From assembly GCA_022071965.1 (NCBI GenBank), contig JAJVIQ010000003.1, forward strand, positions 62,001 to 126,000: DNA of 64,000 bases, in the 5' to 3' direction. The position numbers and the translations under genes were made by a program. Under the pieces are notes generated by a model. The model did not search any database, was not told the DNA's origin, and saw nothing but the letters and a program-made list of their open reading frames with translations. Position 1 is the first letter of the stretch; every line of letters begins with the position of its first letter. Source of the DNA: Gammaproteobacteria bacterium (GTDB lineage Bacteria > Pseudomonadota > Gammaproteobacteria > JAJPIJ01). Shown here in pieces: positions 213 to 4,752 of the stretch.

Positions 213-1529
213 CTATTCCTCCACCCGCGCGATCGCCTGCTGCGAGACGCGCTCGGTCGTGACGGACAGCCGCTGGATCAGGGTCCGCAGAAATGCCTTG
301 AGAAAGCGCACCTGGCAGACCATCGACACCTGGTTGATGACTGTCGAATTCAGCTTCAGCAGCGCGGTCTGGGACCTGGCGATGATGGTCGCGGTGCGGC
401 GCGCGCGCGTCAGATAGCCCATCTCGCCGAAGCAGTCACCGGTCTTGAGCATCCGGAGATCCACGCCGGCCTTGCGCACCGTCACCTCGCCGCCGGTGAT
501 GACGTAGAACGAGTCGTCTATCTCGCCCTCCACGATGATCTCGGCGCCGGGGGCATACTGCAGCCAGTTGCCCGCCCGTACCAGCTCCCAAAGCTCCGCG
601 TCGGTGAAGCCGCGGAAGAACTCCAGCCGCTTCAGATCCGCGCACAGTTCCTCCGCGGCGATCTCCTCGCGCGGCTGCTCGAGCATGCGATCGAAGGCGC
701 GGCTCAAATCGGCGGCAAACTCCATCGCGGTGGGATACCGATCCTGCATGTTCTTCGCCATTGCGCGGCGCACGATGGCCTCGAGTACCTCCGGCACGCC
801 GCTGCGCGCGCTGGCCAACGGCGGGGCCTCCTCGTTGAGGATGCGGTGTATGAGGCGCGAGAAGCTCTCCGCCGTAAAGGGATGGCGACCGGCCAGCAGC
901 TCGTAGGTCACCACGCCCAGGGAGAAAATGTCGGTCTGCGCCGTGAGGGAATCCTCGTTCAACTGCTCGGGCGACATGTACCGGGGCGAGCCGATCATGG
1001 CCATGGGCATCGTGCCCGTGGAGTCGTGCTTGCTCAGGTAGGCGATGCCGAAATCTCCGAGCTTCACATCGAGATCCGCGCTCAGAAGGATGTTGCTGGG
1101 TTTGATGTCCCGGTGGATCACGCCCTGGCGATGCGCGTAGTCGAGCGCCTTGGCCACCTTGAAGACGACCTCCACCACCTTCTCCACCGGCAGCAGGGAC
1201 TCCGGCCTGCAGTATTTCTTGAGGGTTTCCGCGCCCTCCACATGCTCCATGACGATGTAGCACTCCTCACCGTCCACCCCGGCGTCGTAGATCGCGATGA
1301 TGTTCGGGTGGGTGAGCAGGCCGGCGGTGTGGGCCTCATTGAAGAACAGCTTGCGATACTGCGCGCCGGAGCTCTCGTCCTGGAGCTGCTCGGCGTGGGC
1401 CACCTTTATGGCGACCCTCCGATCGACATAGGGATCATGGCCGAGGTACACCGTCCCCATGCTCCCGCGCCCGATCTCTTCCAGCAGTTCGTACTTGCCG
1501 AGGCTCTTGGTCTTGGTATCTGACGTCAT
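213..1529 (-). CDS. Ser/Thr protein kinase with C-terminal cyclic-nucleotide-binding domain (paralogue 1)
   Basis: A 438-residue soluble Hanks-type kinase. The catalytic domain (about residues 13-275) has a complete motif set: glycine loop GRGSMGTVY, VAIK lysine (K42), C-helix Glu (E65), HRDIKPSN (139-146), DFG (159-161) and SPRYMSPEQ. Residues about 305-420 form a cyclic-nucleotide-binding fold. Its phosphate-binding cassette, FGEMGYLTRARRTATI, keeps the Glu and Arg that contact the cyclic phosphate in CRP and PKA regulatory subunits. There is no membrane segment, so it should be cytosolic. The ATG at 1529 was chosen because the paralogue at 3439-4752 aligns from just upstream of this Met, and residues upstream of it look non-coding. 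The gene is divergent from the CBS gene at 1789. Ligand and substrates are unknown. Confidence 0.92.
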   Translation of the reverse strand: MTSDTKTKSLGKYELLEEIGRGSMGTVYLGHDPYVDRRVAIKVAHAEQLQDESSGAQYRKLFFNEAHTAGLLTHPNIIAIYDAGVDGEECYIVMEHVEGAETLKKYCRPESLLPVEKVVEVVFKVAKALDYAHRQGVIHRDIKPSNILLSADLDVKLGDFGIAYLSKHDSTGTMPMAMIGSPRYMSPEQLNEDSLTAQTDIFSLGVVTYELLAGRHPFTAESFSRLIHRILNEEAPPLASARSGVPEVLEAIVRRAMAKNMQDRYPTAMEFAADLSRAFDRMLEQPREEIAAEELCADLKRLEFFRGFTDAELWELVRAGNWLQYAPGAEIIVEGEIDDSFYVITGGEVTVRKAGVDLRMLKTGDCFGEMGYLTRARRTATIIARSQTALLKLNSTVINQVSMVCQVRFLKAFLRTLIQRLSVTTERVSQQAIARVEE

Positions 1530-1788
1530 GGCGAGGGTCGCGGAAGACCGGGTCGAAGCGAAGTGCGCAGTCCTGGCGTCAGCGTCCCCGGCCGCGTGTG
1601 TTGCGAACCGCCTTTTGGGATACCGTCGCGGTTTGTGCGCCCGCAACAAAATCATAGACTAGCACACCGCCGGCATGGACGGGGCGTCCCGCGGTTGTAC
1701 TCTCCCATCTTCGGTGACACACTACTCTTTCAGGATGTGCGTGGATAAAGACCAATCGGGCATGCATATTGCGCGGGAGGCTGCAAAT

Positions 1789-2226
1789 ATGGTGACTGTT
1801 CAGCAGGTGTTGCGAGAAAAGGGATCCACGGTCTGGTCGATTGGGCCCGACGCCACCGTCTACGAGGCCGTGGAGATGATGGCCGAGCGGACGGTCGGTG
1901 CGCTGCCTGTCATCGACTGGGCCAACAACCTGGTCGGTATCATTTCCGAGCGCGACTACACGCGCAAGATTGTCCTGCGGGATCGGTCTTCCCGGGCCAC
2001 CAAGGTGAGGGAGATCATGACCCCGGGTGTCTTGCACGTGAGCCCCACTGCAAGCATCGACGAGTGCATGATGCTGATTTCCGAGCACCACATCCGCCAC
2101 CTGCCCGTCGTCGACGGCGACCGGGTCGTGGGGATGATGTCCATCGGCGACGTGCTCAAGACCATCATCACCGAGAAGCAGTCGCTCATCGAACAACTGG
2201 AGAGCTACATTTCCGGCACAGCTTGA
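1789..2226 (+). CDS. CBS-pair domain protein
   Basis: A 145-residue protein made almost only of two CBS motifs (about residues 8-60 and 77-128). Each ends in the typical V-G-I/M-I/M-S...D pattern (LVGIISERDYTRK and VVGMMSIGDVLK). CBS pairs bind adenine nucleotides (AMP, ATP, NAD or SAM) and act as energy or redox sensors. The ATG at 1789 has a GGGAGG ribosome-binding site 8 bases upstream; longer starts at 1675 or 1735 lack one. It lies between two kinases that carry nucleotide-binding domains and 38 bases before a membrane-anchored repeat protein on the same strand. That makes a shared signalling role plausible but unproven. Confidence 0.88.
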   Translation: MVTVQQVLREKGSTVWSIGPDATVYEAVEMMAERTVGALPVIDWANNLVGIISERDYTRKIVLRDRSSRATKVREIMTPGVLHVSPTASIDECMMLISEHHIRHLPVVDGDRVVGMMSIGDVLKTIITEKQSLIEQLESYISGTA

Positions 2227-2264: not shown

Positions 2265-3344
2265 GTGCGAGCATTCCTGGCCACACTCGTGGTTGTCGCG
2301 TGTCTCGCGGCCGGCGCGTACCTGTACCTGCAGCGCCCCACACCGCCGCCGCCGACCGGCGACGAAGCCGCCCAGCCCGCACCGAACACCCCCTCCGCGG
2401 AGCCCGATACGGGAACCGCCATCACCGAGAACCCCGCCGCCACCAACGATGCGATCGAAAAGGAGGCGCGCGAGTACGTGCGCGAAATCACCGAGCTAAA
2501 GGCGCAGCCGCTGGCGGCCGACAGCGCCGACAACTTCGTGCAGCGGGATCAGACCATACAGCTGCTCCCGACCCGGAAGGCTGACACCATCACACCCGAG
2601 AAGCTGCTCGCTGATCCGAGCCTCGAGCCGGAGACGCCGCTGACCATCATCAAGGACGTCGATCGGATCGAGATTGTCACCATCGAGAAGCTGCGGGAGA
2701 TGTACGGGCAGACACCGGAGAAGCAGATCAGGATCCTCGATGGGTCGCAGACCAGGACCACATCGGTCGGGACGCTGCTGGCCGAGCACGGCAGCGCGCC
2801 GGACACCGCCGTCACGATGGTGAAAAAGGTCGAGGAAATACAGTCCACCACCGCGCAGGAACTGGCAGCCGACTCCGCGCTGGACCCGAACCAGCCGATC
2901 CGGGTGCTGCGCGGCCGTCAGGCCCTCGACGCCGCGACGGTTGCCGAGCTGATGATGGGCAGCGACGATGCCGGCACCGACGCCATCTATTACGTTCGCA
3001 CCGTCAAGGACACGGACACGCAGGGCATCTGGGGCATCATTCAGTACGGACTCATCGACAATTTCGGGCGCGGGATCGCGATACGACGCGGGGAGGACAT
3101 CAGCACTTACCGCGTCGACATACCGCGCAACGCCGACGAGATGGTCAGCGCCCGCAACAGCTCCTTCCTCGGCCAACTCATCTTCGAGAAGTCACAGCAC
3201 AGCTACATCTACAATCTCGAGCAGGGGCGCATGGGACGCAACCCTGACATGATCCGGCCGGGTCAGGAACTCCTCATCATCCGCTTCACCGCCGACGAAT
3301 TGGTGGATATCTACAAGCACTTCGTCAACAGCCGCCGCAGTTGA
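2265..3344 (+). CDS. Membrane-anchored protein with about six 29-residue repeats and a LysM-like C-terminus
   Basis: I do not recognise this 359-residue protein as a named family. Residues 4-22 form one hydrophobic segment (signal anchor or signal peptide), followed by a Pro/Thr/Glu-rich linker (24-60). Residues about 82-253 consist of consecutive units of 28-29 residues. The clearest units start at 110, 139, 168, 196 and 225, each with the pattern T-x-x-x-L...P...I-x-(I/V)-(I/L/V)-(K/R/D). The C-terminal third ends in NPDMIRPGQELLIIRF, which resembles the end of a LysM domain. The start is probably GTG 2265, after a GAGAG-like site; there is no ATG near the hydrophobic segment. It is likely cotranscribed with the CBS gene and convergent with kinase 2. 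Confidence 0.7.
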   Translation: MRAFLATLVVVACLAAGAYLYLQRPTPPPPTGDEAAQPAPNTPSAEPDTGTAITENPAATNDAIEKEAREYVREITELKAQPLAADSADNFVQRDQTIQLLPTRKADTITPEKLLADPSLEPETPLTIIKDVDRIEIVTIEKLREMYGQTPEKQIRILDGSQTRTTSVGTLLAEHGSAPDTAVTMVKKVEEIQSTTAQELAADSALDPNQPIRVLRGRQALDAATVAELMMGSDDAGTDAIYYVRTVKDTDTQGIWGIIQYGLIDNFGRGIAIRRGEDISTYRVDIPRNADEMVSARNSSFLGQLIFEKSQHSYIYNLEQGRMGRNPDMIRPGQELLIIRFTADELVDIYKHFVNSRRS

Positions 3345-3438: not shown

Positions 3439-4752
3439 TCACGGGGCCGTGTCCGCCATCTTCTCGGTGGTCGACGACAGCCGCTCGATCAGGATGCGCA
3501 GGAACACGCGGCAGAAACGCAATTGACAATCCTTGGAGACCTGCTCGATCAGGGTCGAGTTCACGCGCATCAACGTCACGGGCGAGATCGCGATGATCGA
3601 CGCCGTGCGTCGACGCCGGCTGATGTAACCCATCTCGCCGAAGCAGTCGCCCGCCTTCAATTCGCCCACGATCGTGTCGCCTTTCTTCACGACGACCGAG
3701 CCGCTGATGAGTATGTAGAAGGAGTCGTCGATCTCCCCTTCGACGATGATCTCTCCGCCCTCGTCGAAGCGCTCCCAGACGCTGGCGCGCATGATCTCCC
3801 AGATCTCCGCCTCGCTGAAACCGCTGAAGAAGTCGAGCCGCTTCACGCTCGCGACCTTCTCCTTGGTGGAGATGTCCTCGACGGGCTGGTCGAAGTTCCG
3901 GAACGTGGTGCTGAGGTCCACCGCGATGTCCATGCCCATCTTGTAGCGCCGCCGCAGATCCTTCTGCAGGCATCGATTCACGATCTGCTCGAGCTGCTCC
4001 GGAAGATCGGGGCGCACCTGCCGCAGCGGGATAGGCTCCTCGTTGACGACCCGGTAGATGAGCTTCGAGAAGGAATCCCCACCGAAGGGATGCCGCCCGC
4101 TCAGCAACTCGTACATCACCACGCCCAGCGAAAACAGATCGGTCTGGTTGCCGACATTGTCCTCCTGGATCTGCTCCGGGGACATGTAACGGGGCGATCC
4201 GACGAACCCCACCGGCAGCGTCTTGGAGGAGTCGCGCCGGGTGACGTAGGCAATGCTGAAATCGGCGATCTTGAGATCGCCGTCCGGCGTCAACAGCATG
4301 TTGGAGGGCTTGATGTCACGGTGGATGACGCCCTGCCGATGCGCATAATCCAGCGCCTTGGCGCACTTGAAGATGATCTCCAGGACCTTGGAGACGGGCA
4401 GCAGCTTGTCGGGCCGGGTATAGGACTTCAGGGTGTCGGCGCCTTCGACCAGCTCCATCACGATGTAGCAGGTCTCGCCTTCGACGCCGGCGTCGAAGAT
4501 GTCGAGTATGTTCGGGTGGCGCAGCATCCCGGCCGTGTGCGCCTCGTTGAAGAACATCTTGCGGTAGGTTTCGCCCGACTCCTTGTCGCGCAACGCCTCG
4601 GCGAGCGCCACCTTGATGGCGACCGCGCGGGCGACGAAAGGATCGAAACCCCGGTAGACGACTCCCATGCTGCCCCGCGCTATGGCATCGATGACATCGT
4701 ACTTGCCGAGCTTGCGCGGCAGAGTGTCGGTGCTTTCCAGGAGCGCGTTCAT
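3439..4752 (-). CDS. Ser/Thr protein kinase with C-terminal cyclic-nucleotide-binding domain (paralogue 2, divergent active site)
   Basis: A 437-residue paralogue of the kinase at 213-1529, with the same architecture and long identical blocks such as KALDYAHRQGVIHRDIKPSN and EIIVEGEIDDSFY. The catalytic loop HRDIKPSN (144-151) and VAIK (K48) are intact. Two motifs deviate: the first glycine of the nucleotide loop is Ala (ARGSMG, 25-30), and the metal-binding DFG is DFS (164-166). The cyclic-nucleotide cassette FGEMGYISRRRRTASI keeps Glu and Arg. No membrane segment is visible. It is divergent from the SCO1 gene at 4976 and convergent with the repeat-protein gene. It may be active, weakened or regulatory; the HRD Asp and Lys argue against a complete pseudokinase. 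Confidence 0.92.
   Translation of the reverse strand: MNALLESTDTLPRKLGKYDVIDAIARGSMGVVYRGFDPFVARAVAIKVALAEALRDKESGETYRKMFFNEAHTAGMLRHPNILDIFDAGVEGETCYIVMELVEGADTLKSYTRPDKLLPVSKVLEIIFKCAKALDYAHRQGVIHRDIKPSNMLLTPDGDLKIADFSIAYVTRRDSSKTLPVGFVGSPRYMSPEQIQEDNVGNQTDLFSLGVVMYELLSGRHPFGGDSFSKLIYRVVNEEPIPLRQVRPDLPEQLEQIVNRCLQKDLRRRYKMGMDIAVDLSTTFRNFDQPVEDISTKEKVASVKRLDFFSGFSEAEIWEIMRASVWERFDEGGEIIVEGEIDDSFYILISGSVVVKKGDTIVGELKAGDCFGEMGYISRRRRTASIIAISPVTLMRVNSTLIEQVSKDCQLRFCRVFLRILIERLSSTTEKMADTAP

Follow-up and report, generated by a model that had tools for sequence, protein, structure and literature searches.

The 64,000-nucleotide window of gammaproteobacterial DNA analyzed here encodes a membrane-anchored protein of 359 residues, in which five abutting units of 28-29 residues form a tandem repeat array between an N-terminal segment and a conserved C-terminal domain (the head). 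The array, which had been noticed in a first-pass annotation of the sequence, is confirmed. As judged from profile searches, the protein represents an unnamed, gammaproteobacterial family that is recognized by neither Pfam nor NCBIfam models. The finding is real and is undescribed in the libraries searched, while the architecture of the protein is of a familiar kind.

Layout of the protein and its repeat array

The gene begins with a GTG codon at position 2265, where a 92%-identical homologue from a gammaproteobacterial metagenome bin (L002/L005) has ATG, and the residue numbering of the first-pass annotation fits the same start. The features of the gene are as follows.

2265..3344, + strand: repeat-protein gene, 359 amino acids plus stop, GTG start; homologues align from the same Met
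2271..2330, + strand: single N-terminal membrane anchor, residues 3-22 (from the sequence; helix 2-22 in a low-confidence model)
2337..2444, + strand: Pro/Ala/Thr-rich linker, residues 25-60, with no detectable constraint
2445..2552, + strand: conserved helix (LEKEAREYVREI) and ADNFV motif, residues 61-96, also present in repeat-free homologues
2553..2639, + strand: repeat unit 1, residues 97-125 (unit profile)
2640..2726, + strand: repeat unit 2, residues 126-154 (unit profile; in the AlphaFold model)
2727..2810, + strand: repeat unit 3, residues 155-182 (unit profile; in the AlphaFold model)
2811..2897, + strand: repeat unit 4, residues 183-211 (unit profile)
2898..2984, + strand: repeat unit 5, residues 212-240 (unit profile), abutting the first strand of the C-terminal domain
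2985..3341, + strand: C-terminal domain, residues 241-359, conserved, with 18 residues invariant among 13 homologues
3054..3176, + strand: middle segment between the LysM-like halves, residues 264-304, absent from LysM
3201..3284, + strand: LysM-like half (SYIYN...NPDMIRPGQELLIIR), residues 313-340 (profile-profile match)

The earlier description of the protein as membrane-anchored is borne out by its one N-terminal helix, and the protein is probably a single-pass, periplasmic one; the bulk of the chain would lie on the periplasmic side because only two residues precede the membrane helix. A lipoprotein reading was rejected, as homologues from other genera lack Cys13 and there is consequently no conserved lipobox cysteine. 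An AlphaFold model of the whole protein, calculated with two sequences, reached a pLDDT of 34 and was discarded as unusable.

The five units are arranged head to tail over residues 97-240 (DNA 2553-2984), with lengths of 29, 29, 28, 29 and 29 residues in the unit profile and the consensus ITVLRERERVEVTTVGELLEDEALDPDTP. Self-comparison of residues 75-255 gave its top value at a lag of 57 (0.41 per position), followed by a lag of 29 (0.00). Among 500 shuffles no lag gave more than 0.05, so that the lag of 57 lies above all of them and that of 29 near the top. A unit profile built without the window's own units recovered all five, with a total of 51.4 bits, compared with 6.4 for the highest-scoring shuffle out of 500, unit 5 being the weakest (4.3 bits). 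Since this held-out profile derives from homologues, part of the 51.4 bits is plain homology, a contribution from which the lag test is free. Nine proteins were each found by the unit profile to contain exactly five units, again abutting. Ten members, counting the window's own, have a comparable linker; in eight of these, lags of 27-29 or 56-58 appear at a level that none of 1000 shuffles reached, and for the remaining two, 2 and 6 of 1000 shuffles were as high. In most members the strongest lag is 57, which indicates that the units tend to pair.

The first-pass annotation had described about six units at 2511-3026, one of them degenerate and placed at about residue 82. The tandem repeat itself stands, but the number does not: a count of six was rejected since the unit profile gives five, and residues 82-96, which receive no unit-profile match, hold instead a separately conserved motif (ADxFV) that is present too in the repeat-free homologues. 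The single one-residue gap noted at the time agrees with the unit lengths, and the proposed unit starts (110, 139, 168, 196 and 225) trace the same array in a shifted phase, each falling near the start of a helix.

A model of the repeat was obtained with AlphaFold from units 2-3 plus the next strand, using four rows of input (units 2-3 and 4-5 of both the window and L005). It has a pLDDT of 83 and the order strand-helix-strand-strand-helix-strand, and the repeat unit is accordingly predicted by the model to comprise a beta-hairpin and a short helix (beta-beta-alpha). A periodicity in structure prediction, which the first-pass annotation had set as a test of the repeat, is thus seen here at the level of strands and helices.

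The C-terminal head and its relation to LysM

All 18 residues of the protein that are invariant among the 13 homologues fall in the C-terminal domain (D251, Q253, G254, W256, G257, I258, G270, P287, A290, D291, E292, S299, S300, L302, G303, K309, P332 and Q334), and nine of them (G270, P287, A290-D291-E292, S299-S300 and L302-G303) belong to the middle segment.

The C-terminus had been said to end like a LysM domain, and for its last part this holds. Against a LysM profile assembled from approximately 28 domains of the window's own and related genomes, the final ~25 core residues of the domain (NPDxIxPGQxLxI) scored 29.5 in hhalign (probability 92), compared with a maximum of 19.6 among 100 column-shuffled profiles. 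The likeness of the first half (~20 residues, YxVxxxDxQGLWGI) is weak and marginal: it aligned in register with the LysM pattern Y-x-V-x-x-G-D-T-L-x-x-I at a score of 14.0, and 4 of the 100 shuffles scored higher. Subthreshold matches on the last half were also found to the NCBIfam SafA LysM model and to a PDB entry for a phage tail protein with a LysM annotation. The Pfam LysM model (PF01476) matched none of 13 natural members at E values up to 10, and none of 10 members from which the middle segment had been cut out.

Compared with the compact beta-alpha-alpha-beta fold of LysM, which comprises ~44 residues, the C-terminal domain is extensive, measuring ~100 residues end to end. It differs from LysM in having ~40 extra conserved residues between the two halves, a first loop that is longer by two residues and an additional C-terminal helix (ELxxIYxHF). 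Two of the conserved blocks map to the two glycan-binding loops of LysM, whereas the block in the middle segment is without a LysM counterpart. On these profile comparisons, the C-terminal domain is best described as LysM-like in part and not as a LysM domain. Contact with peptidoglycan, which the first-pass annotation had suggested, stays at the level of what we infer, because the Pfam LysM model never matches and the first half is marginal.

Distribution of the family and selection on its parts

Of 369 genomes spread over the class, 15 matched a full-length profile, and of 398 spread over the phylum, 2 (one of them the window's own) matched a profile of the C-terminal domain. The C-terminal domain by itself is much more widespread than the repeats: within the taxonomic family f197, it occurs in 44 of 60 genomes. 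The same five-unit arrays are clear in homologues from five further taxonomic families within the class, and degenerate arrays are found in those of two more. The homologue of lineage G162 (L015/L030) has degenerate repeats with four weak units. The homologues of f197 and of G115/G231 have a different linker with no 28-residue period, and in f197 these linkers are ~65 to 317 residues in length and unrelated in sequence. As the head is kept on unrelated linkers of varied length, the repeats look like a structured spacer of exchangeable sequence that is specific to certain lineages. The repeat label requires three changes on a tree built from the C-terminal domain, against 7.9 for shuffled labels; deep support in this tree is weak.

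The contrast between head and spacer is also illustrated by the ratios of nonsynonymous to synonymous substitution (dN/dS), calculated for the window versus L005, two close strains. The ratio is below 0.25 in the gene outside the proline-rich linker, with values of 0.032 for the conserved helix and ADNFV region (residues 61-96), 0.039 for the C-terminal domain, reflecting strong purifying selection, and 0.21 for the repeats, where purifying selection is weaker; the linker itself gives 1.35, a value derived from 36 codons and small counts. The head is the functional core of the protein, and the weaker constraint on the repeats makes them look like a spacer, as they keep their structure with a freer sequence.

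Proposed role, gene context and relatives of the repeat

We give roughly even weight to the proposal that the protein is an inner-membrane tether or scaffold, with a reach set by the spacer and a head that docks on peptidoglycan or a partner associated with the wall. The N-terminal helix would anchor the protein in the inner membrane, leaving the remainder in the periplasm, where the five beta-beta-alpha units would form a structured and presumably elongated spacer. This spacer would carry the ~120-residue head, whose two LysM-like ends may make a groove able to bind glycan and whose conserved middle segment of ~40 residues would provide a second, family-specific surface. The head would then dock at a distance fixed by the spacer. 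A comparable layout is that of FimV/HubP-type inner-membrane proteins with a periplasmic LysM domain. Both have a single membrane helix and, on the periplasmic side, a LysM-like part in a tether or scaffold arrangement, but the present protein lacks a cytoplasmic domain, has its anchor at the extreme N-terminus and contains unrelated repeats; the comparison is one of layout and no homology is claimed.

In support of the tether, two lineages have the gene among cell-wall genes (gene names here and below as read from sequence). In G162 (L015/L030), the order is an AMIN-domain amidase-like gene, mutL and then the repeat-protein homologue, and in G115/G231 (L018, L019) the repeat-free homologue directly follows an mpl-like gene. 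The neighbors in f197, which are smrA-like, GST-like (glutathione-S-transferase-like) and tmcA-like, are unrelated to the cell wall; genes of the first two kinds adjoin the homologues in several of its genera (L082-L087). Taken together, the gene context is a hint at the wall and gives no stable partner. Against the tether, no LysM model matches any member, whether the middle segment is removed or not, and the units modeled with confidence are two only.

A further point against the tether is that most of the NPDxIxPGQ block is lost in G115 and G231 (L018, L019), while the ADE and SSFLG residues are kept, so that what the members have in common may be a function other than glycan binding. This retention of the middle segment where the LysM-like block erodes, the concentration of half of the invariant residues within that segment and the lack of a match between the head and any library model all favor a different reading, to which we assign a lesser but real likelihood: that the head is a new domain with a working surface formed by the middle segment (ADE, SSFLG) and Lys309 just after it, acting on a protein partner or in chemistry, and that the LysM-like end is a remnant or a product of convergence. 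However, the last half scores well above the shuffles in the LysM comparison, the first half fits in order and register, and the head contains no recognized catalytic motif.

In the window, the gene is flanked by two kinase genes and a CBS-domain gene, and starts 38 bases past the stop of the latter.

213..1655, - strand: Ser/Thr protein kinase with a cyclic-nucleotide-binding domain
1675..2226, + strand: CBS-domain protein gene, probably co-transcribed with the repeat gene
3439..4752, - strand: second Ser/Thr protein kinase with a cyclic-nucleotide-binding domain

The flanking kinases are paralogous, each with the cyclic-nucleotide-binding domain at its C-terminus, and two more copies occur elsewhere in the genome; the kinase/CBS block is kept across several families. 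The protein could be the envelope arm of a signaling module with the CBS protein and the two kinases, either reporting on the state of the wall or periplasm or being controlled by the module, and the locus speaks for this in part: the CBS gene adjoins the repeat gene in eight genomes (the window's included), four taxonomic families (f1, f12, f140 and f71) share the arrangement kinase - CBS - repeat gene, and the flanking order is found, whole or in part, in 9 of 15 other loci examined. We nevertheless regard such a module as improbable. The protein has almost no cytoplasmic part, its membrane helix being preceded by two residues; both the kinase and the CBS neighbor are missing beside the homologues of four other lineages, and no close relative of the kinase was found in the genomes sampled from G334, G162, G115/G231 and f197. 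Furthermore, the sister genus retains both kinases and the CBS gene, with the slot between CBS and the second kinase filled by a glucose-6-phosphate-isomerase-like gene, and an obligate link to the kinases was rejected since the locus is kept there without the repeat gene. The gene in this slot, which reads like glucose-6-phosphate isomerase, lies at 3595-5262 in L090 (G002) and at 2996-4633 in L091 (G003), and in G011 (L024) a gene of the same kind directly adjoins the repeat gene.

The repeat of the proposed spacer has no relatives above cut-off among the known repeats searched. Membership of a known family, a point that the first-pass annotation had put to profile searches, was not found: natural sequences and profiles gave nothing above cut-off in Pfam, NCBIfam, PHROGs or the PDB. 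The view that the repeat is not TPR, Sel1, PPR or PASTA also holds, as neither these nor any other Pfam repeat model matches; in fact, TPR, Sel1 and PPR units are helix pairs, in contrast to the predicted strand-strand-helix order here. Foldseek searches with the unit pair gave best E values of 0.26 against the PDB and 0.34 against viral models, at an rmsd of 4-5 Å, and were taken as chance, the power of these comparisons being limited by the shortness of the two-unit model (65 residues). No relatives were found in the viral contigs searched, and no description of the family in a limited search of the open-licence literature. One homologue and the consensus weakly match RAMA (PF18755), a domain associated with DNA methylases, at E values of 0.05-0.07, far below cut-off, and a search of the window's own genome for RAMA found none.

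DUF348 (PF03990), the G5-linked, ubiquitin-like beta-grasp domain of Rpf/YabE-type wall proteins, has a strand-strand-helix order, tandem copies in wall-associated proteins and a TVxELL-like (TVxxLL-like) helix start, all of which resemble the present array, and an artificial tandem of the unit consensus matches it weakly (E 0.0033, 17.6 bits, cut-off 24), as it does a ubiquitin-like RBD (E 0.002). That the units are a degenerate form of this domain and not a new repeat is nonetheless very improbable, since the DUF348 score is below cut-off and stands beside a dozen other weak matches of the consensus, no natural sequence matches the model, no ubiquitin entry is among the 50 best Foldseek matches in the PDB (none with E below 0.26), and a unit of 28-29 residues, compared with 41 in DUF348, is too short to accommodate the additional strands that a beta-grasp domain has.

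It is conceivable, and we put it forward tentatively, that two things are new at once: a 28-29-residue beta-beta-alpha repeat without a solved counterpart, and a widespread periplasmic domain of Gammaproteobacteria, derived from a split LysM through the acquisition of a conserved middle segment with a function of its own. Boundaries, a consensus and a distribution are now given for a family that was recognized here by no Pfam or NCBIfam model, though it is present in 44 of the 60 genomes of the well-sampled f197. With its conserved head on exchangeable spacers, the family is a test case for the reach of envelope proteins between membrane and wall, and also for whether LysM can take a large insertion and yet keep its glycan groove.
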